From: Granulicella aggregans
GTDB lineage: Bacteria; Acidobacteriota; Terriglobia; Terriglobales; Acidobacteriaceae
Reading direction: 5' to 3'
Length of the DNA stretch: 64,000 bases
Assembly (NCBI RefSeq): GCF_025685565.1
Contig: NZ_JAGSYE010000003.1
Location: 248,001 to 312,000, forward strand
In this document: positions 17,732-53,356 of the stretch, piece after piece
Numbering within the stretch: the stretch's first letter is position 1
How the letters are laid out: every line of letters starts with the position of its first letter
Notes under the pieces: model-generated
What the model was told of the DNA's origin: nothing
Database searches by the model: none
Seen by the model: only the letters and a program-made list of their open reading frames with translations
Program-made: the position numbers and the translations under genes

Positions 17732-17816
17732 CCCTCTAGTTTACGGCAATCTTGTGGTTTCCATTTCGCAGCCAATTGCCTGACATTGCTGGGTGAATGA
17801 CACGTAACAATTCCCA

Positions 17817-17912
17817 CGCCCTTGTCATACGCCCTTGTCATACGCCCTTGTCATCCGCCCTTGTCATCCGCCCTTGTCATCCTTCGCGCAGCGGAGGATC
17901 TGTTTCGGCTTT
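17817..17912 (+). repeat. Family E repeat preceded by a 13-bp tandem array
   Basis: Five head-to-tail copies of CGCCCTTGTCATM occupy 17817-17881. The last leads into CTTCGCGCAGCGGAGGATCTG, the family E hairpin. The first two units end in A and the last three in C. Confidence 0.9.
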
Positions 17913-27523: not shown

Positions 27524-28372
27524 ATTACCGATCCCTATCGTCTGCGAAGGAGCCCCTTGCCTCTTTGCCTTCACCCAAAACGCTTCCAGCTCCACCGCAC
27601 TCTTCCCACGCAGCCCGTCCTCTCCCGCCTCCGCTTCCATCCCCGCAAATCGCCGCCGAAACTTCGCATTCGCCCCACGCAGCGCCGCATCCGGATCGAC
27701 CTTCAAATGCCGCGCCAAATTCACTGCCGTAAACAGGAGATCGCCAAGCTCCGCTTCCATTAACTCGCGCGAGCCGGTTGCAACCTCAGCCTTCAACTCT
27801 TCAATCTCTTCATCGAGCTTCTCGAACAACTCTGTCGCCCGCCCATCCGCGTTCGGCCAGTCGAAGCCCACCTTAGCCGCTTTCGACCCCAGCTTTCCCG
27901 CCTCCAGCAGCGGCGGCATAGCGCGAGGCACCTCATCCAGCAGCGAAGCTGCTTTCATTCCAGCCGCCTTCTTCTCCTCCAGCTTGATCTGTTCCCAGTT
28001 CCGCAGCACCGCATCCGCGTCGGTCGCCGTGACACCTCCCCCCGTCTCTCGGGAAAAGATATGCGGATGTCGCCGGATCAACTTCGCGTTCAGGTTCGCC
28101 GCAACATCATGGATATCGAAGTACCCAGCCTCCGCTGCCATCTGCGAATAAAACAGCACCTGCAGCAACAGATCGCCCAGTTCATCTTTCAAATCCGGCC
28201 ATGCCCGGCGCTCGATCGCGTCGAAGACCTCGTAGGTCTCCTCCAGCGTATGCCGCTTAATGCTGTCGAAGGTCTGCTCACGGTCCCAAGGACACCCATC
28301 CGGCCCCCGCAGACGCGCCATGATCGCAACAGCTTCAGCAAACGCATCTTCTCTTTCTTCCATCGCCCCCAA
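27485..28372 (-). CDS. mazG: Nucleoside triphosphate pyrophosphohydrolase MazG
   Basis: Hydrolyses (d)NTPs to NMP and PPi in housekeeping of the nucleotide pool. Two MazG helical domains are present in 295 residues: LRGPDGCPWDREQTFDSI with HTLEETYEVFDAI and DELGDLLLQVLFY in the first, and EEIEELKAEVA with EAELGDLLFTAVNLAR in the second. The C-terminus after AFWVKAKR is unusual: the last dozen residues (GEESGSSDFVEG) and the stop are encoded by a family E repeat. ATG 28363 is an alternative start. Confidence 0.95.
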   Translation of the reverse strand: MGAMEEREDAFAEAVAIMARLRGPDGCPWDREQTFDSIKRHTLEETYEVFDAIERRAWPDLKDELGDLLLQVLFYSQMAAEAGYFDIHDVAANLNAKLIRRHPHIFSRETGGGVTATDADAVLRNWEQIKLEEKKAAGMKAASLLDEVPRAMPPLLEAGKLGSKAAKVGFDWPNADGRATELFEKLDEEIEELKAEVATGSRELMEAELGDLLFTAVNLARHLKVDPDAALRGANAKFRRRFAGMEAEAGEDGLRGKSAVELEAFWVKAKRQGAPSQTIGIGNGEESGSSDFVEG

Positions 28373-28458
28373 GCAGCAAGCCCTCCCCAGCTACGAAAAG
28401 CCTACAGCATCTTCACCACCCATCCCGACCCGCTGCCGTATCACTCGCCTCCACGGCC

Positions 28459-28492
28459 GTCATTCTGAGCGAAGCGAAGAATCCCCGCATTT
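28459..28492 (+). repeat. Interspersed repeat, short B/A hybrid
   Basis: GTCATTCTGAGCGAAGCGAA joined to GAATCCCCGCATTT: a family B head with the family A end and no hairpin. Confidence 0.75.
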
Positions 28493-28519
28493 ATAGTTGT
28501 CAGTTTTCAGTAAACCTCC

Positions 28520-28618
28520 GTCATCCTGAGCGAAGCTTCTTGCAGCCTCACCGCAAGAAGAGCACTCGAAGGACCCCGAGCGATCCCACATCACCCAAAC
28601 CCCTGAAACCTTTCAGCC
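28520..28618 (+). repeat. Interspersed repeat, family B, full length
   Basis: GTCATCCTGAGCGAAG, hairpin CTTCTTGC / GCAAGAAG around AGCCTCACC, then CACTCGAAGGACCCCGAG and the tail to AAACCTTTCAGCC. Confidence 0.88.
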
Positions 28619-28648
28619 ACAAGAATCCCATGCCACAATAAAACAGCG

Positions 28649-28864
28649 ATGCCCCCGACCACCCAATCCGGAACGCCCCGCGCCTGGAAGTTTCTTCTAC
28701 TCCTACCCTATTTAGGCCTCTGCTTCCCTCAGCTCTACACCCGCTCCATCCCAGCGCTCTTCGGCTTCCCATTCTTCTACTGGTACCAATTCCTTTGGGT
28801 CATCCTCACCTCAGCCATCCTGGCCGTCTACTACCTCCTCACCCGCCGCAGCACTACACCCTGA
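28649..28864 (+). CDS. DUF3311-like small membrane protein
   Basis: 71 residues with two membrane spans: WKFLLLLPYLGLCFPQLY and YQFLWVILTSAILAVYYLL. The PALFGFPFFYWYQ segment between them is the DUF3311 hallmark. Such proteins normally precede a sodium:solute symporter; none is here, so this one appears orphaned. Confidence 0.75.
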   Translation: MPPTTQSGTPRAWKFLLLLPYLGLCFPQLYTRSIPALFGFPFFYWYQFLWVILTSAILAVYYLLTRRSTTP

Positions 28865-29018
28865 ACCATACCGTTAAAGAGGCTAACGGAACCCTATACA
28901 AGCGGTTCCGTCGCGGTGGGAGGGAAAGCGGATCCGGAGGTTTCCCGATTCGCCCCGTAAGCGGGTTGGTCGTGCGGAGGTAAGGCGAGGTTTGGTAATG
29001 CAGCTTGTTGGCGGCGTT

Positions 29019-29798
29019 TTATTGCCCACCGCTCGGAACTGTAGAACTTGACGGCTGAGATTGCTGGCCCATATTGCTCATCAACTTCACTTCAACTCTG
29101 CGATTCTTAGCGCGCCCCGTAGCTGTCTTATCGGATGCAACCTGCTGATCTTTACCAATGCCGATCAGATAAAACTTGTGCGGAGGAACGTTGTATTGAG
29201 TCGCTAAGTAATTAACTACAGCATCCGCGCGGCGTTGGCTGAGCTGATAGTTGTATTGAGCGTCCCCAGTAGAGTCAGTTCCGCCCGTAACTTCCAGCAA
29301 ATAGCCCTTTGTGCTATTCAAATTGGCCGCAAAGTCATCCAACTGCTTCTTATCCGCCGCCGTAAGCACAGCCTTGTCGAAGGCGAACGTGACACTCACA
29401 TCCGAGACCGGTTTGTAGTTATCCAGGTTCGCAACCACGCCGCTCAGAGTGTCCACGCGGTTGTAAGCATCCTGCGCATTCTGTCCAGCGGCGTTCGCGG
29501 CTTCGCCAGCAGCATTGGCGTGCTGATTCGCTGCGTCCGCCGAAGCCTGTGCGCCAGCGATTCCCTTTTGGGCCCGGTCATCCGTGTCGCCAATCGCCCG
29601 GTGGTCCGCCGCCGTCTTTGCATCCAGCTCGTTCGTCTGCTGAACCAGAGGGCCAGTCTGTGCCTTCACGTAGTTCTTCGAAGCGCATCCGGTCACGCCT
29701 AAGCCCATCGCCAGAACTCCGGCGGCAAAGATCCCCGCCGTATACATCGTGCGCGATGCTGACTGCACCCGCACCCTACCAGAAGCGTAAGTTTTCAT
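29019..29798 (-). CDS. OmpA-family lipoprotein
   Basis: 259 residues. The N-terminal signal ends with a lipobox-like GVTGC. Then comes an Ala-rich helical segment with heptad-like AGAQASADAANQHANAAGEA, probably a trimeric or extended coiled coil. The C-terminal peptidoglycan-binding OmpA domain carries VTFAFDKAVLTAADKKQL, LSQRRADAVVNYL and GRAKNRRVEV. It probably tethers the outer membrane to the cell wall, like Pal. Confidence 0.92.
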   Translation of the reverse strand: MKTYASGRVRVQSASRTMYTAGIFAAGVLAMGLGVTGCASKNYVKAQTGPLVQQTNELDAKTAADHRAIGDTDDRAQKGIAGAQASADAANQHANAAGEAANAAGQNAQDAYNRVDTLSGVVANLDNYKPVSDVSVTFAFDKAVLTAADKKQLDDFAANLNSTKGYLLEVTGGTDSTGDAQYNYQLSQRRADAVVNYLATQYNVPPHKFYLIGIGKDQQVASDKTATGRAKNRRVEVKLMSNMGQQSQPSSSTVPSGGQ

Positions 29799-30141
29799 AG
29801 TCGTTCTCCACGTTCGGTATTACTTCTCTTTAGATGCAAACCTCCATCCGTCGTTGGCTAGATCAACTAAGCCGCTTCTAATCAGACCTTTGCCAATCTT
29901 TCGCAAAATCCCCCAACTTCCGCCCCAACATCGCAAAGCATTTTTTCCCCACAAACCAGTCAATTTTTCCCAACAACTTTTTCCGAGCGACAAATCCCTC
30001 ACCCACCGGCCTGATCCACGCGAAGGTGAAACAGAAGCCCGCTATCCTCCGCAAACCCGCCTTTCCCTTATCCCTTCTCCCTCGCCGCCTACACCCTGCA
30101 CCCTACCCCCTGTCTTCCATCTACACTTGAATCAGCCCCAA
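29799..30141. other. Divergent intergenic region, OmpA gene / uvrC
   Basis: 343 bases. The half near the OmpA gene is AT-richer with runs of T and probably holds promoters, but I cannot place boxes. The uvrC side is a pyrimidine-rich tract ending CCCTACCCCCTGT-like, similar to that before the GNAT gene at 8760. Confidence 0.5.
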
Positions 30142-32265
30142 ATGGATCTCCTTGCCAAAATCCGCACAATCCCCACCCTCCCCGGCTGCTACCTCTACAA
30201 GAACGCCGAAGGCGAGGTCATCTACGTCGGCAAGGCCAAGAACCTTCGCGCGCGCGTCCGCTCCTACTTCCTCGAAGCGAACCAGATGAACGCCAAGACC
30301 GGCTCGCTGATGCGCGAGGCCGTCGACGTCGAATACATCACCGTAGACAACGAGCGCGAGGCCCTCGCCCTCGAAAACAACCTCATCAAGCAGCGCAAGC
30401 CACGCTTCAACATCCTGCTGCGCGACGACAAGACCTACCCCTACATCAAGCTCACCCTCAACGAGCGCTTCCCCAAAGTCTTCGTCACCCGACGCCTGCG
30501 CAAGGACGGCAGCGCCTACTTCGGGCCTTACTTCCCTGGCAACCTCGCCTACAGGCTGGTCGACCTCATCCACCGCAGCTTCCTCATCCCCAGCTGCAAG
30601 ATCGACCTGAACCGCTACCACCCCCGCGCCTGCCTGCAGTTCTACATCAAGCGCTGCCTCGGCCCCTGCGTCGAAGGCTTCGTCACCCCCGAGGCCTACA
30701 AAGAGACCGTCCGCGACGTCCAGCTCTTCCTCGAAGGCCGCACCGAAGAGCTCGAGCGCAAACTCACCTCCCGCATGTCCGCCGCCGCCGAAGCCGAGCA
30801 CTTCGAACTGGCCGCCCGCCTCCGCGACCAGGTCGTCACCGTCCACCAGATGCAGGACAAGCAGCGCATCGCCACCGCCGACAACGAAGACGCCGACGTC
30901 TTCGGCTTCCACTTCGAGAACCAGATGCTCGCCGTCAACCTCTTCCACATGCGTGGCGGCAAGATCGTCGACCGCCGCGAGTTCTTCTGGGAAGACCTCC
31001 CCGAGATGAACGCCTTCTTCGGCGAATCCCTCAACGAAGACCCCGACGCCGATAGTTCTACAGACGAAACCCAACATCAACTCCGTCATCCTGAGCGGAG
31101 TTCGTCGCGCTCTTTGCGACGAACGGAGTCGAAGGACCCCGATACCCTCTCCCAGCCTGAGCCGCTCGAATCTTTCTCCCAGGAAAGCCAGTCCTCTCAA
31201 GCAGAACCCAACCCCACCCAGTCCGCCCCCGAGATCACCGAAGCCCCCCCCATCCTCCAGCACACCCCCATCGAAGAACCCGGCCAATCCTTCAGCCCCT
31301 CCGCCTTCTTCTCCGCTCTGCTCAAGCAGCTCTACCTCGATCAGTCCTACATCCCCCGCTCTATCCTTCTCCCGGTCGACTTCCCCGACCGCGCAATCCT
31401 GACCGATGTCCTCTCCGAGAAAGTCGGCCACCGTATCGAGATCGCCGCCCCCCGCCGCGGCGACAAACGCTCCTTAGTCGACCTGGTCGGCCAGAACGCC
31501 CGCCAATCCTACGACCAGCGCTTCCGCGTCCTACAACCCAACCAGAAGGCCATCCAGCAAGCCCTGCAAGACGCGCTGACCCTCGAAGAGTTGCCGAAAA
31601 GAATCGAGTGCTTCGACATCTCCCACATCCAGGGTGCCGAAACCGTCGCTTCCATGGTGGTCTGGGAAGACGGCACAATGAAGAAGTCTGACTACCGCAA
31701 GTTCCAGGTCAAGACCGTCTCCGGCGTCGACGACTTCGCCTCCATGCGCGAGATCATCCACCGCCGCTACAAGCGCCTCCTCGACGACAAAAAAGACTTT
31801 CCCTCCCTGATCCTCATCGACGGCGGCCTAGGCCAACTCCACGCCGCCGCCGACGCCCTCGCCGAGATCGGCGTCACCCTCCAACCCCTCGCCTCCATCG
31901 CCAAGAAGGAAGAGATCATCTACGTCTACGGCCAGGAGAACGACCCCGTAGTCCTCGACCGCCGCAGCCCCGTCCTCCACTTAGTCCAGAAGATCCGCGA
32001 CGAATCCCACCGCTTCGCCGTCACCTACCACCGCAAGCGCCGCCAGATCCGCGACCGCGAGACCGAACTCGACGCCATCCCCGGCGTAGGCCCCCGCACC
32101 CGCCAACGGCTCGTCCAGCACTTCGGCAGCGTCCGCGGCATCAAGCAGGCGACCCACGACGCCCTGACCGCCGTAGTCTCCCCCTCCATCGCCACCAAGA
32201 TCAAATCCCACTTCGCCGAAGAAGCTCCCACCGAAGTCCTGGCCACCCTGGTTCAAATCTCCTAG
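30142..32265 (+). CDS. uvrC: Excinuclease ABC subunit C, with repeat-encoded insertion
   Basis: Makes the 3' and 5' incisions in nucleotide-excision repair. The start at 30142 gives the normal N-terminus with the GIY-YIG nuclease domain (LPGCYLYK ... VIYVGKAKNLRARV). A UVR motif (ELAARLRDQV), the UvrC RNase H-like endonuclease domain (ECFDISHIQGAETVASMVV) and C-terminal helix-hairpin-helix motifs (IPGVGPRTRQRLVQHFGSV) follow. At 707 residues it is about 100 longer than usual. The excess lies at about residues 305-385, a polar, Ser/Glu/Pro-rich linker, part of which is a family B repeat. Confidence 0.96.
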   Translation: MDLLAKIRTIPTLPGCYLYKNAEGEVIYVGKAKNLRARVRSYFLEANQMNAKTGSLMREAVDVEYITVDNEREALALENNLIKQRKPRFNILLRDDKTYPYIKLTLNERFPKVFVTRRLRKDGSAYFGPYFPGNLAYRLVDLIHRSFLIPSCKIDLNRYHPRACLQFYIKRCLGPCVEGFVTPEAYKETVRDVQLFLEGRTEELERKLTSRMSAAAEAEHFELAARLRDQVVTVHQMQDKQRIATADNEDADVFGFHFENQMLAVNLFHMRGGKIVDRREFFWEDLPEMNAFFGESLNEDPDADSSTDETQHQLRHPERSSSRSLRRTESKDPDTLSQPEPLESFSQESQSSQAEPNPTQSAPEITEAPPILQHTPIEEPGQSFSPSAFFSALLKQLYLDQSYIPRSILLPVDFPDRAILTDVLSEKVGHRIEIAAPRRGDKRSLVDLVGQNARQSYDQRFRVLQPNQKAIQQALQDALTLEELPKRIECFDISHIQGAETVASMVVWEDGTMKKSDYRKFQVKTVSGVDDFASMREIIHRRYKRLLDDKKDFPSLILIDGGLGQLHAAADALAEIGVTLQPLASIAKKEEIIYVYGQENDPVVLDRRSPVLHLVQKIRDESHRFAVTYHRKRRQIRDRETELDAIPGVGPRTRQRLVQHFGSVRGIKQATHDALTAVVSPSIATKIKSHFAEEAPTEVLATLVQIS
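31085..31180 (+). repeat. Full-length family B repeat inside uvrC
   Basis: GTCATCCTGAGCGGA head, hairpin GTTCGTCGC / GCGACGAAC with loop GCTCTTT, GGAGTCGAAGGACCCCGATA, and a tail with GAGCCGCTCGAATCTTTC. It keeps the uvrC frame open, encoding about residues 315-346 (LRHPERSSSRSLRRTESKDP). Confidence 0.92.
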
Positions 32266-32282
32266 CCACAAAACCGGGTGCC

Positions 32283-32322
32283 GGGTGCCCCATATCTGGC
32301 GGCCTCATCGCCAGATGTGGGA
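32283..32322 (+). repeat. Interspersed repeat, family C
   Basis: GGGTGCCCCATATCTGGCG, GCCTCAT, CGCCAGATGTGGG, just after the uvrC stop. Confidence 0.88.
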
Positions 32323-32339
32323 TCCAAGCCACAGACTCT

Positions 32340-32381
32340 GTGCCCCATTCATTCGTAGCCTCATCGCGAATGAGTGGTCCC
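32340..32381 (+). repeat. Interspersed repeat, family C, diverged stem
   Basis: GTGCCCCATTCATTCG, loop TAGCCTCATCG, CGAATGAGTGG. Stem sequence differs from the neighbouring copy but still pairs. Confidence 0.85.
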
Positions 32382-32421
32382 GCCTCACCCATTCATCGAG
32401 AATCGAAAGCACCGATACTCC

Positions 32422-32507
32422 CCGAACTTTTCCTGCCTTCATCCCGTATCCTCCTGCACATGGCCACCACAGTCGTCCGTCCCGCCGACCCCACTCTCCG
32501 CGCCGCC
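32422..32507 (+). repeat. 86-bp direct duplication, left copy
   Basis: From CCGAACTTTTCCTGCC to CCGCGCCGCC. It matches 32559-32644 with two mismatches and includes a spare copy of the glycosyltransferase start codon (32460). Confidence 0.93.
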
Positions 32508-32546
32508 GGGTGCCCCATATCTGGCGGCCTCATCGCCAGATGTGGG
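32508..32546 (+). repeat. Family C repeat between the 86-bp copies
   Basis: GGGTGCCCCATATCTGGCG, GCCTCAT, CGCCAGATGTGGG; nearly identical to the copy at 32283. Confidence 0.9.
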
Positions 32547-32558
32547 ATCAAGCTCGAG

Positions 32559-32644
32559 CCGAACTTTTCCTGCCTTCATCCCGTATCCTCCTGCACATGG
32601 CCACCACAGTCGTCCGTCCCGCCGACCCCACCCTCCACGCCGCC
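32559..32644 (+). repeat. 86-bp direct duplication, right copy
   Basis: Functional copy containing the glycosyltransferase ATG at 32597 and its first 16 codons. Confidence 0.93.
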
Positions 32645-34204
32645 CTGCGTCTGGCCCTCCTCTTCGCCGCCATCAAACTCGTCCTCCACGTGGCCGCCAA
32701 CCTGTGGGAGGCCCACATCGGCTACGGCTACTTCCGCGACGAGTTCTACTACATCGCCTGCGGCCGCCATCTCGACTTCGGCTACGTCGACCACGGCCCC
32801 ATCGTCGCCCTCCAGGCCCGCGCCTCGGAGCTCCTCTTCGGCCGGTCACTAGCCGGTCTGCGTTTCCTCTCCGCCCTCGCCGGAGCTGCCCGCATCTTCC
32901 TCACCGGCATCCTCGCCTGGGCCCTCGGAGGCCGCCGGCCCGCGCAAGGCCTCGCCATGCTCGGCGTCCTGCTCGTCCCCCAGTACCTCGGCACCGACAG
33001 CTTCCTCTCCATGAACTCCTGCGAGTCCATGTTCTGGATGACCTGCCTCCTCGCCCTCATCCTGCTCCTCAAAAACGAAGCCGACGCCAACTCCCAAAAA
33101 CTCTGGCTCCTCTTCGGCATCTCCGGCGGCATCGGCGTCCTCAACAAGCCCTCGATGACCTTCTTCCTCATCGCCCTCCTGATCGCCCTCATCCTCACCC
33201 CGCAGCGCCGCATCCTCTTCACCAAGTGGGCCGCCATCGGCACCGCCGTCCTGATCCTGATCGCCCTGCCCAACCTTCTCTGGCAGATCCACAATCACTG
33301 GCCCACGCTCGAGTTCCTCCGCAACGGTCAGCTCGGCAACAAGAGCATCAAGCTCTCACCCATAGCCTTCACCCTCAAGCAAATCCTCAACATGGGCCCG
33401 CTGCTGGCCTTCATCTGGGTGGCTGGATTAGTCCGCCTTCTTCGCAGGAAAGAAGACCGCTGGCTAGGCATCACCTTCGTCCTCTTCTTCGCAATCATGA
33501 TGCTCGAGCACGCCAAGGACTACTACGTCTCGCCCGTCTACCCCATCCTCTTTGCCGCTGGCGGCATCGCCTGGGAGGCACAGTTCGCCGCGCGTAAATG
33601 GGTGAGACAAGACCGCGCCATCGCCTTCCCCATCTACGCGACGATCCTGGTCCTCGGAGCGATCTTCATCCTCCCGCTCGCCCTCCCGCTCATGCCGCCG
33701 GCGCAGTGGCTCGCCTACACCCACGCCACCGGCCTCGACCACATCACCACCAACTCCGAGACCAACTCCAGCGGCCCGCTCCCACAGTTCTTCGCCGACC
33801 GCTTCGGCTGGCAGGAGGAGGTCGACCAGATCCAGCGCGTCTACGACTCGCTCCCACCCGAGCAGCAGAAGATCACCGGCATCGTCGCCGAAAACTACGG
33901 CGAAGCCGGAGCCGTCGACTTCCTCGGCCACAATCTCCCGCCCGCTCTCTCCGGCCAGAACAACTACTTCCTCTGGGGCCCGCACGGCTACAACGGCGAC
34001 TCCATGATCGTCGTCGAGCACACCACGCGCGAACACCTTCTCAACTTCTGCGACCACGTCGAGGTCGTCGGCCACACCGGCACGACCTACTCCATGCCCT
34101 TCGAACACAAGACGATCTTCCTCTGCACTGGCCGCAAGCTCGACGCCGACGGCCACAGGTTCAGCCTGCTCGAACAATGGCCGTCCAAGAAGGATTTTTT
34201 CTGA
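32597..34204 (+). CDS. ArnT/PMT-like glycosyltransferase family 39 membrane protein
   Basis: 535 residues, polytopic. The first lumenal loop carries GYGYFRDEFYYIACGRHLDF and GYVDHGPIVA: the DE motif and following aromatic/His pattern of GT39/GT83 dolichyl- or undecaprenyl-phosphate-sugar transferases. Ten or so membrane helices follow, then a C-terminal soluble domain with GIVAENYGEAGAVDF. It would glycosylate an envelope acceptor. The start is fixed by the right copy of an 86-bp duplication; frames opening further upstream run through repeats. Confidence 0.88.
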   Translation: MATTVVRPADPTLHAALRLALLFAAIKLVLHVAANLWEAHIGYGYFRDEFYYIACGRHLDFGYVDHGPIVALQARASELLFGRSLAGLRFLSALAGAARIFLTGILAWALGGRRPAQGLAMLGVLLVPQYLGTDSFLSMNSCESMFWMTCLLALILLLKNEADANSQKLWLLFGISGGIGVLNKPSMTFFLIALLIALILTPQRRILFTKWAAIGTAVLILIALPNLLWQIHNHWPTLEFLRNGQLGNKSIKLSPIAFTLKQILNMGPLLAFIWVAGLVRLLRRKEDRWLGITFVLFFAIMMLEHAKDYYVSPVYPILFAAGGIAWEAQFAARKWVRQDRAIAFPIYATILVLGAIFILPLALPLMPPAQWLAYTHATGLDHITTNSETNSSGPLPQFFADRFGWQEEVDQIQRVYDSLPPEQQKITGIVAENYGEAGAVDFLGHNLPPALSGQNNYFLWGPHGYNGDSMIVVEHTTREHLLNFCDHVEVVGHTGTTYSMPFEHKTIFLCTGRKLDADGHRFSLLEQWPSKKDFF

Positions 34205-34230
34205 TTCCTTCGTGATCCATTCTAGGCTCC

Positions 34231-34294
34231 GTCATCCTGAGCGAAGCGAAGGATCCCGAGGGTGTCCGCGCTACCCATGCGGCTCGAACCATCC
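34231..34294 (+). repeat. Interspersed repeat, family B, short form
   Basis: GTCATCCTGAGCGAAGCGAA, GGATCCCGAG, tail with GCGGCTCGAACCAT. Confidence 0.8.
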
Positions 34295-34335
34295 TGCCCG
34301 CACAGCCCGAGCCCTGTGCCCCATCCATCGCGCCC

Positions 34336-34396
34336 GGGTGCCCCATCCATGGCTCGCACTTGGCCATGGGTGGGACATTCGTGCAAAGCACGAACC
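34336..34396 (+). repeat. Interspersed repeat, family C, with tail hairpin
   Basis: GGGTGCCCCATCCATGGC, GGCCATGGGTGGGACATTCG, then a TTCGTGC/GCACGAA tail. It is preceded by a truncated copy. Confidence 0.82.
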
Positions 34397-34398
34397 CC

Positions 34399-34676
34399 TT
34401 ACTTCTGAGCATCCACATAAGCCCTGAGCACCGCGTTCATCCGAGTCAGGTGGCCCTTCCCGTTCGCCCTGAACCACTCCACCACATCGCTGTCCAGACG
34501 AAGATGCACCGACGTCTTCCCACGCAGCATCACCACCCGAGCCTTGCTCCAGAACTCCGCGCCAAGCGACTCCGCCTCCGGAGCCTTCGCACTCGTCTTA
34601 TCCGCGCGCTCGCCCTCAGCCTCTTGAGCTATCTAAAGCGGCCAGATCAGCTATGGGTTTTTTCGAGAGTGCGCAC
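34399..34676 (-). pseudogene. BrnA-like ribbon-helix-helix antitoxin, apparently frameshifted
   Basis: The minus strand ends with EFWSKARVVMLRGKTSVHLR and LDSDVVEWFRANGKGHLTRM, NAVLRAYVDAQK, a good BrnA/RHH antitoxin C-terminus stopping at 34399. The in-frame sequence upstream has no start before a TAG near 34637. The expected N-terminus (KKPIADLAALDSSR) is in another frame, and a third frame begins GTG-CGC-ACT-CTC at 34676. A run of six A (34658-34663) and the CAAGAGG region mark the two frame changes. No BrnT toxin gene is present. Programmed slippage at A6 is a less likely alternative. Confidence 0.6.
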
Positions 34677-34831
34677 CGCGCACGCTCTGAGTGGAGGGTT
34701 GCATCCCAAGAGCAGTCGTGCCGGAGTGAGAGGTCGCCAGATTTTGTAGAGACTACCCAACGCTGTTTCTCTTTTGGAGCCTAGAATAGGAAGAATCTTC
34801 AACAAAGCACTTCCGTGACCGGAGGATCGAC

Positions 34832-36373
34832 TTGTCTGCCCCTATTGCGAATTTGCGAAAGTTAATCCAGGAAAACTCCCGAATTCAGAAGGGAGCATCG
34901 ATTCAAATCGACTATGTCGACGTGACTCACGCTCTCGCTGACGCCACGACAAAGCAGAATCACGTTGTGTTTGGACGGCGCGGATGCGGTAAGAGCCTGC
35001 TACTGGAGAAGGTGCGTAAGGGCACCGATGAGAAAATCCGTGCAATCTATATCAACTGCGAAGATTACAAGCATCACTCGTTCCCTAACGTATTAGTCGA
35101 GATTCTAGACGCCGTCTTTACCGAGATTGAGACACATCTTGGAGGATGGTTTGGGAAGAAGAAAAAGCTGAAAACTCTGGTTGGCGAACTGAGAGGCGAG
35201 CTCTCTACTCTCCGCGCCAAGGAAGATGAGATAACAAAAAAAGTCAAAAGCAAAGCGGAAGTCGAGAATAAAAAGTCCATTGGGGCAAAGGGCGGCGTTC
35301 CCCACCTTCAGGCAGATCTCGGCCTATCCAGCACACAAAAGAAATCGATTGAAGCGGAATATGAGACCTTTGACGATAAGATCCGCGAACTCAACCAGAT
35401 CCTTCCACGTTTGAAGAGGATTATTGAACAGTTTTTTGTATTGTCCCAAAAGGTAGAAGTCATCTTCGTGGAACTGGATGATTTTTATCAGCTGAGGCGC
35501 CCAATACAGCCTTATGTCGCAGATTATGTTCACCGTCTATGCAAAGATGTTCCACTTTTCTTCAAAATCGGTACCCTTCGTCATGCAAGTTCTTTATATG
35601 CTGATCGTCACCAACAGCCGATTGGAGCTCAGGAACGTCACGACTATCAGCCTATAAATATTGATTACACTCTGGCTGATTTCAAGAAGACCTCGGAGCA
35701 GATCCGCAAGATTCTGTACGAGTACGCTAACAAGGCAGGGATGAAGAAAAATGAAGCGGATGCGCTTTTCAAAGGAGAAGGATTCAACCGGTTAGTTCTG
35801 GCTTCGGGAGGGGTACCACGCGATTTTCTCTCTCTGCTGCTCGAAGCGCTATCGGAGAAACCGGCGGGTGATGAGCGAATCGGGAAGGACGACGTGAGAG
35901 TGCTCAGCCTCAGCACTTTTCAGCACAGAATTGAGGAACTAAAGGCTGATTCGGAAGAGAAAGACCACGACGTCCTCATACGCGGTATTTATGCAATCAG
36001 GAAGCTCTGCCTAGATAGAAAAAACAATGTGTTTCTTGTAGCCGATAGAACTCTTCAAGAACGCAGCGCAATAAGAGACCTGCTGAACCGCCTGGTTGAC
36101 TACAGAATCATTCACCTCGTTGGCAATGCGTTGACGCATAAGTCGCAACCGGGCACATTCACAGCGTACATGATTGACATCGGAGCTTACGCCAATCTGC
36201 GTAAGCTGGCGAACAGATTCCGCGAAATCGATGTCACTGCTAGCAACTCGAAAGAACAATGCAGAAACGCACCTGTTTTAGACGGATTGACTCTTGAAGA
36301 GTTCTTCGCGGCCGCCCCGAGCAACGCGGAGGCACAACTGCTCAAAGAGACTGAGGATATTGACGAGGAATGA
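34832..36373 (+). CDS. P-loop ATPase of unrecognised family, likely foreign
   Basis: 513 residues from TTG 34832, which follows GGAGG at proper spacing. The P-loop GRRGCGKS is at residues 48-55, a Walker-B-like VIFVELDDF at 210-218, and a sensor-2-like SGGVPRDF at 325-332, as in Orc1/Cdc6- and STAND-type ATPases. Residues 105-200 are highly charged and probably coiled coil. Residues about 385-450 look like a winged helix (DRTLQERSAIRDLLNRLVDY). The DNA is visibly AT-richer than its neighbours with different codon choice, which suggests transfer. It stands alone, with no partner gene on either side. Function unknown. Confidence 0.82.
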   Translation: MSAPIANLRKLIQENSRIQKGASIQIDYVDVTHALADATTKQNHVVFGRRGCGKSLLLEKVRKGTDEKIRAIYINCEDYKHHSFPNVLVEILDAVFTEIETHLGGWFGKKKKLKTLVGELRGELSTLRAKEDEITKKVKSKAEVENKKSIGAKGGVPHLQADLGLSSTQKKSIEAEYETFDDKIRELNQILPRLKRIIEQFFVLSQKVEVIFVELDDFYQLRRPIQPYVADYVHRLCKDVPLFFKIGTLRHASSLYADRHQQPIGAQERHDYQPINIDYTLADFKKTSEQIRKILYEYANKAGMKKNEADALFKGEGFNRLVLASGGVPRDFLSLLLEALSEKPAGDERIGKDDVRVLSLSTFQHRIEELKADSEEKDHDVLIRGIYAIRKLCLDRKNNVFLVADRTLQERSAIRDLLNRLVDYRIIHLVGNALTHKSQPGTFTAYMIDIGAYANLRKLANRFREIDVTASNSKEQCRNAPVLDGLTLEEFFAAAPSNAEAQLLKETEDIDEE

Positions 36374-52072: not shown

Positions 52073-53356
52073 ATGCCCACCGAGACCTTCCTCGAACTAG
52101 CGAAGAATCCAACCCGCCGCAACACCCTCATCGCCGCTTCTCTCGGCTGGATGCTCGACAGCATGGACGTCATGCTCTTCTCGCTCCTCATCCCGGCAAT
52201 CGAGAAAGACCTGAAAATATCAGCCGCCACCGCAGGCGGCATCATGTCGCTCACGCTTATCTCCGCCGCCGTCGGAGGCATCTTCTTCGGCTTCGTCGCC
52301 GACCGCTTCGGCCGGACGCGGGCGCTCTCCGCCAGCATCCTCGTCTACTGCCTCGCCACCGGCCTCTGCGCTTTCACCCACTCCGCCTTGGAACTCGCTG
52401 CATGCCGCGTCCTCCTCGGCCTCGGCATGGGTGGCGAGTGGGCCGCTGGAGCCGCCCTCGTCGCCGAGACCTGGCCCACCAGCCATCGCGCCCGAGCCCT
52501 CGGCCTCGTCCAAAGCGCCTGGGCGATAGGCTATGCGCTCGCCGCCGCCATCACCGCGCTCATCATGCCCCGGTTCGACTCCCACCTCGGTTGGCGCGCC
52601 GTCTTCCTCATCGGCATGGCTCCCGCTCTCGTCACACTCTGGATCCGTCGCAAAGTCCACGAACCCACAGCCCTGAAAGATCTCAGCCCAGCCACCAACT
52701 GTGTGCCCCATTCATCGCAGCACCATCGCGATGAGTGGGTCTCGCCGCCACACTTAGCCCCGACAACCTCCTTCAAACAACTCTTCCAGAAACCCCTCCT
52801 CCGCCCCACCCTCATCATCACCAGCATGAACGCCGCTTCCCTCTTCGCTTGGTGGGGGCTCTTCTCGTGGGTCCCGGCCTTCCTCTCGCTTCCCGTCGCT
52901 CAAGGAGGCCACGGCCTCAACATCGTCCGCACCTCCACCTTCACCATCCTCATGCAGGCTGGAACCTTCCTCGGCTACACGCTCTTCGGCGTTCTGGCAG
53001 ACCGCTTCCCCCGCAAGCGCGTCTATATCGCCTACCTGCTCATAGCAGCCGCCTTGGTTCCCCTATACACGCTCACAGGCAGCGCAATAACAGTCCTTCT
53101 CCTCGGCCCGCTGGTAGGATTCTTCGGCACCGGCTTCTTCTCGGGCTTCTCGGTCATCGCCGCCGAGGCCTTCCCCACCGCCCTCCGTGGCCGAGCCATG
53201 GGCATGGCCTACAACCTGGGCCGCATCGCCAGCGCCGCAGCGCCCTTCACCATAGGCCGCCTCTCCCAAACCCACGGTATAGGCCCCGCATTGGTCCTCA
53301 CCTCCGCCGGATTTCTACTCGCAGCAGTGATCGCATCGGGACTACGTACTAACTAG
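52073..53356 (+). CDS. MFS transporter (sugar/aromatic-acid porter type)
   Basis: 427 residues, twelve membrane helices. The loop 2-3 signature is FGFVADRFGRTRALSAS, repeated in the second half as FGVLADRFPRKRVYIA. RVLLGLGMGGEWAAGAALVA is typical of the SHS/AAHS-type carboxylate porters. The central cytoplasmic loop (about residues 210-222, NCVPHSSQHHRDEWV) is encoded by a family C repeat. The substrate is unknown; the neighbouring hydantoinase genes are only suggestive. Confidence 0.92.
   Translation: MPTETFLELAKNPTRRNTLIAASLGWMLDSMDVMLFSLLIPAIEKDLKISAATAGGIMSLTLISAAVGGIFFGFVADRFGRTRALSASILVYCLATGLCAFTHSALELAACRVLLGLGMGGEWAAGAALVAETWPTSHRARALGLVQSAWAIGYALAAAITALIMPRFDSHLGWRAVFLIGMAPALVTLWIRRKVHEPTALKDLSPATNCVPHSSQHHRDEWVSPPHLAPTTSFKQLFQKPLLRPTLIITSMNAASLFAWWGLFSWVPAFLSLPVAQGGHGLNIVRTSTFTILMQAGTFLGYTLFGVLADRFPRKRVYIAYLLIAAALVPLYTLTGSAITVLLLGPLVGFFGTGFFSGFSVIAAEAFPTALRGRAMGMAYNLGRIASAAAPFTIGRLSQTHGIGPALVLTSAGFLLAAVIASGLRTN
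52701..52739 (+). repeat. Family C repeat inside the MFS transporter gene
   Basis: GTGTGCCCCATTCATCGC, loop AGCACCATC, GCGATGAGTGGG; in frame with the transporter. Confidence 0.88.

Follow-up and report, generated by a model that had tools for sequence, protein, structure and literature searches.

The uvrC gene of this Granulicella aggregans genome carries, within its reading frame, a full-length copy of a dispersed palindromic repeat that we call family B. Conservation of the copy begins at position 31083 of the window (the whole stretch of 64,000 nucleotides that was analysed) and stops near 31180; the stretch 31084-31179 makes up exactly 32 codons, which are read in frame as UvrC residues 315-346 and start with RHPERSSSRSLRRTESKDPD. 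We put a probability of roughly four in five on the reading that the insert is a REP-like mobile palindromic repeat which became fixed after a tolerated landing in a loose loop of the protein. The features discussed below are collected in Table 1.

Table 1. Coordinates of uvrC, its repeat and a second gene with an in-frame repeat, as positions in the window
Feature	Position	Strand	Basis or remark
uvrC, 707 aa	30142..32265	+	ORF list; Pfam GIY-YIG, UVR, UvrC_RNaseH, UvrC_RNaseH_dom, HhH
Loop, residues 291-381	31012..31284	+	pLDDT below 50; hypervariable among 57 genus genes
Full-length family B repeat	31083..31180	+	Codons 315-346 = 31084-31179
Conserved head CCGTCATCCTGAGCG	31083..31097	+	Column information 1.6-2.0 bits, CC through G, 38 listed copies
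Hairpin	31100..31124	+	Stem 31100-31108 with 31116-31124, loop 31109-31115
Conserved core GTCGAAGGACCCCGA	31128..31142	+	Alignment of family copies
Tail, end CTCGAATCTTTCTCCC	31143..31180	+	Similar tails in most of 38 listed copies
Type D7 repeat, in frame, central loop of MFS transporter gene (52073-53356)	52698..52740	+	Profile match, E 1.8e-4

The family B repeat and its copies in genes

The genome itself (5.74 Mb, 14 contigs) was searched with the 63-nt segment comprising head, hairpin and core, which gave at least 38 matches at E <= 0.001; this number is a lower bound, the best 40 of 100 first-look candidates having been scored, and the 38 copies are those nearest to the uvrC copy rather than the whole family. 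The window holds nine matches to the family profile. Family B is a dispersed, multi-copy hairpin repeat of roughly 96 nt and is laid out as a CGTC tag, a conserved head, an inner hairpin, a core and a tail of about 40 nt. CCGTC opens most of the 38 copies, and the loops of the inner hairpin are mostly 5-9 nt long. The sequence of the hairpin stem differs among the copies with pairing retained: the 37 copies that could be parsed contain 30 distinct stems, and the mean perfect stem measures 7.46 bp vs 3.45 +/- 0.17 bp over 200 shuffles. In the uvrC copy the stem is a perfect one of 9 bp, the loop has 7 nt, and the tail terminates in CTTTCTCCC. A family profile that was built without this copy recovered it at E 9e-23 among 69 uvrC genes, which bears out the original prediction of a full-length element in frame. 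Compared with a copy on another contig, it is 97% identical over 61 query bases.

One of the three sense frames is shut in all 38 copies by a TGA in the head, and the remaining two are free of stops in 33 and 30 copies. Only 12 of the 38 copies have a length that is a multiple of three, so there is no sign that family B was built for coding. The repeats of the window mostly avoid genes: 20 of its 25 repeat profile matches fall outside crude gene calls, which cover 82% of the sequence, and of the five matches inside such calls three appear to be located at, or upstream of, the real gene starts.

Around the other family B copies there are 28 distinct open reading frames; 20 of these and uvrC were scanned with Pfam, the scan leaving aside seven, among them a reverse-strand frame over uvrC. 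Of the frames scanned, only uvrC and a transporter-hydrolase frame show domains to either side of the element, and this count of two copies inside genes is valid for the sample of 38 copies. The second case (L084, C2:788944-788998) concerns a large SSF - beta-lactamase-fold - NamZ fusion protein, an open frame of about 1,400 aa in many genomes of the genus, whose linker contains a family B copy read in frame. This copy uses the other of the two open family B frames from the one read in uvrC. The copy is common to the closest relative, G034, and at the same site G027 and G004 show similar-looking peptides (12 proteins aligned, judged by eye only). A repeat of another type, D7, lies in frame in the MFS transporter gene of Table 1; it is likewise common to G034, and eight other aligned proteins are without it. 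In both shared cases the frame is retained without indels between the two genomes, with two and three amino-acid-changing codons and one and three silent ones. Over all segments common to two genomes, amino-acid-changing codons equal or exceed silent ones in four of four pairs, so the backing for translation comes down to the lack of stops and frameshifts. On this footing, residues 315-346 of UvrC are presumably translated.

An Rfam scan of window positions 28000-35000 returned no match, and no tRNA was found within the window. A tandem array with the 13-nt unit ACGCCCTTGTCAT was noted at 17816-17880.

The loop in UvrC and its counterparts in relatives

Both UvrC RNase H-like models of Pfam match the 707-aa protein. 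PF22920, the N-terminal UvrC RNase H-like domain, hits it in two stretches, the best of which starts with profile position 40 at residue 384. In an AlphaFold2 model (17 sequences, mean pLDDT 68, pTM 0.42), predicted strands at residues 250-259, 262-271 and 274-283 are followed by a stretch from 291 to 381 with a pLDDT below 50 and then by a helix at 386-398. The model and the split Pfam hit place the repeat in a loop inside the N-terminal RNase H-like domain. The conserved residues 91-176 likewise have a pLDDT below 50, so low confidence alone is no proof of disorder; that the loop may be disordered is better argued from its hypervariable length and sequence. The insert had been expected in a disordered linker between the UVR motif and the endonuclease domain, of which the disordered-looking segment stands and the plain linker does not, the predicted site being inside a domain. 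The protein had also been taken to be about 100 residues longer than usual. In most members of the genus the loop measures about 60 aa, compared with 9 aa in one distant relative with a UvrC read as 601 aa; the repeat thus accounts for 32 of the roughly 100 extra residues, and most of the excess reflects the long loop found throughout the genus.

To compare the same loop across the genus, 62 genomes were searched, 60 of which had a uvrC match and 57 of which gave a full uvrC (G025, G043, G050, G052 and G060 yielded no full gene and are outside the loop count). The full family B element was found in none of the 56 other aligned UvrC genes, including that of the sister species, which is 89% identical; residues 315-346 were thus absent from relatives as the original prediction had proposed, and among these 56 genes there is no linker sequence common to all. 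One loop, that of G022, gave a weak profile match (E 0.0065) to a related type. A DNA alignment of our uvrC with that of G034 did not reveal a clean empty site; both genes contain inserts, and the next relative has diverged.

Repeats of other types do occur in this loop. In G034 (Granulicella aggregans M8UP14), whose flanking uvrC DNA is 94% and 90% identical to ours, the loop holds a different palindrome, GGTGCCCCATTCATCGCG...CGCGATGAGTGGG, with at least 40 matches in the G034 genome and at least 41 in our own; the insert matches the D7 profile. The loop of G056 contains a D2-type repeat (4 matches in G056, at least 41 in our genome), those of G002 and G022 the TCATCCCGAGC type (42 and 24 matches among those listed), that of G019 a short TCATCCTGAGCGCAGCGAAGGACC repeat (149 exact pattern matches) and that of G028 the GGTGCCCCAGG type (13 matches), each count including the uvrC copy itself where this was matched. 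The loop of G044 (L012) carries a probable decayed copy of the G028 type, an assignment based on the alignment with G028, as the DNA search that gave the G028 type did not detect it. Altogether, recognisable repeats of about six types are present in 8 of the 57 loops, or firmly in 7 of 57 when G044 is left out, and the loop repeats recur elsewhere within their own host genomes. Several types have a common head (TCATCC or GGTGCCCCA), so the six or so may form three or so broad groups.

The association with the loop is also seen in its position and length. All five profile matches at E <= 0.05 in the 69 uvrC genes lie inside the loop, which makes up 12,234 of 136,725 bp. Outside the genus (12 genes examined), the uvrC of L114 carries the family core in reversed orientation at E 0.0018. 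Eight of the nine longest loops in the genus bear repeats, and repeat-bearing loops have 81-118 aa, whereas none of the other 49 exceeds 84 aa (Mann-Whitney p 5e-6, kinship ignored). In the uvrC loops of L013 and L014, a second, simple AACTAACAACCA-like repeat was seen by eye near the loop end, seemingly in frame.

On a tree of UvrC with 60 rows, from which the loop was left out, the label "repeat present" requires at least six changes, which may be gains or losses and all of which are forced by well-supported branches. As few changes were required by 24 of 500 label shuffles, and repeat presence is thus neither strongly clustered nor scattered. Our genome (G000) and its sister G034 are paired with 100/100 support and carry two different loop repeats, so at least one event beyond the six has to be added. 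The UvrC loop seems to have picked up repeats time after time, leaving the gene intact.

Explanations of the insert and comparison with known repeats

We propose that a REP-like repeat landed in the uvrC coding sequence, most likely after the split from the sister species. The repeat is open in the frame used, and the net length change preserved the reading frame. If the landing site was a surface loop without a fixed fold, the protein would still work and the insertion could become fixed. Repeats would land widely, with selection purging those in folded parts or in a wrong frame; in loose loops they would be retained and left to decay. The loop of the relatives may have taken other repeat types because a loose loop tolerates in-frame landings. 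The uvrC insert itself is probably neutral. A broader version, in which mobile palindromic repeats continually supply the genus with new disordered protein sequence, the UvrC loop documents one capture after another by different repeat families, each decaying into linker, and capture is a main route of loop growth here and in other loops and linkers alike, is possible but considerably more doubtful.

Repeated hits to one loop would also be expected if the loop were useful and repeat capture selected, for instance if the new sequence tuned UvrC contacts or if a hairpin in mRNA or DNA regulated uvrC, and the REP-carrying genes described elsewhere include many DNA repair genes (PMC3733652). We consider such selection unlikely, since the peptides from captured repeats differ in sequence between repeat types, 49 of the 57 genus loops are without a recognisable repeat, and the MFS transporter and the transporter-hydrolase fusion also took repeats in their loops. 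Even less probable is that the repeats reached the loop via recombination between the uvrC genes of different species instead of by insertion in each lineage. The types common to the pairs G022/G002 and G028/G044 (G044 by alignment only) would agree with such an exchange; against it, the repeat types recur in the same host genomes, and the uvrC flanks group G000 with G034 at 100/100 although their repeats differ. The coding strand is C-rich, with a GC skew of -0.31 around the site, and a low-complexity C-rich coding sequence might resemble a repeat by chance without any insertion. This was ruled out by the match statistics: an E value of 9e-23 from a profile lacking the uvrC copy excludes chance resemblance, and the near-identity to the copy on another contig likewise speaks against it. 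Insertion of a mobile repeat into a tolerant loop remains our preferred explanation.

Capture of repeats within genes is as such a known phenomenon. In-frame insertions of REPs and of Rickettsia palindromic elements have been published, also in uvrA and uvrB, and DNA repair genes are prominent among the coding regions with REPs (uvrA, uvrB, UvrD/Rep, DNA polymerase I, recBCD), for which neutrality through placement in loops or linkers has already been suggested (PMC3733652). The same study describes two Xanthomonas species whose recB genes carry different REPs at roughly the same position (PMC3733652); uvrC does not appear in its main text. The uvrC element shares with intragenic REPs that it is multi-copy, has palindromic pairing, lies in frame in an open reading frame and is absent in its full form from the 56 other aligned orthologues of the genus. 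Like the GTAG and CGTC repeats, family B is a short palindromic repeat found in coding regions (PMC3733652), but it is longer (about 96 nt) and has a variable inner hairpin and a tail. With the CGTC superfamily in particular it shares CGTC at one end and the lack of a flanking transposase gene, no transposase having been found for CGTC-tagged repeats (PMC3733652), whereas the 8-9 bp stem, 4-5 nt loop and short CCA-like tail of that superfamily do not fit. The five phyla from which CGTC repeats are reported there do not include Acidobacteria (PMC3733652). Rickettsia palindromic elements are similar in being palindromic repeats in frame in many protein genes (PMC3733652); this likeness is one of description, and the two differ in host phylum and in that most copies seen here lie outside genes.

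Among its best matches, a literature search for repeats in UvrC returned no report, nor did we find one that describes a single UvrC loop taking up several types of repeat. What is of interest in our observation is that different repeats have used one loop recurrently, with about six types in eight genomes. Earlier in-frame cases of REPs and Rickettsia palindromic elements come as lists of individual genes; in the present case, no fewer than six arrivals or losses concern one loop in one genus, with a sister species at hand for comparison. Two questions can thereby be put to the test: whether captured sequence stays neutral filler or acquires a use, and what makes DNA repair genes prominent among the genes that carry REPs.

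Mobility and orientation of the repeats

One genome of Granulicella aggregans has been reported to contain 5,307 predicted REPs (PMC12306157), and an acidobacterial TIRYT group is among the RAYT-associated REPs or TIR repeats (PMC3733652). In our genome, palindromes of this association were found at two REP transposase (RAYT) genes. The RAYT (Y1_Tnp) gene of L001 (1386-1996) is closely flanked by D5 palindromes in inverted orientation (E 1e-16) and represents a REPtron-like unit. The RAYT (Y1_Tnp) gene of L003 (1057-2628) has D5 and D7 palindromes on either side, and the D5/D7 palindromes at these loci are of the kind seen in the uvrC loop of G034. Family B differs from these RAYT-mobilised REPs in that none of the three RAYT loci L001-L003 contains a match to it at E <= 0.01. 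Flanking direct repeats were also sought at the 38 family B copies, and none scoring 15 or more was found, so family B bears no transposition signature. The proposal that the repeats are or were mobile is therefore supported more strongly by the other repeat types in the loops of relatives than by family B itself, for which mobility is nevertheless likely in our view. The repeats may move as single-stranded DNA, with a RAYT acting in trans.

With genes on both strands, 24 of the 25 repeats in the window share one orientation (8 of 9, 5 of 5, 4 of 4 and 7 of 7 for the four repeat types, which were defined on the + strand), and the GC skew stays below zero in each of the eight 8-kb blocks of the window. 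The orientation of family B agrees with the local GC skew in 28 of the 38 copies (Fisher p 0.005), the skew over 3 kb being only a proxy for replication direction, and seven of the ten exceptions are members of close inverted pairs. Such a bias would fit insertion into one replication strand, as described for IS608 and ISDra2 (PMC6006769).

Downstream of uvrC, two direct copies of 86 bp that are 98% identical (32422-32644) and include the probable start of the next gene have a D5 palindrome (32508-32558) exactly between them. In G034, this site has a single 86-bp copy and a short intergenic region. It may be that the palindrome inserted recently and produced a very long target duplication, or that it was captured at a tandem duplication.
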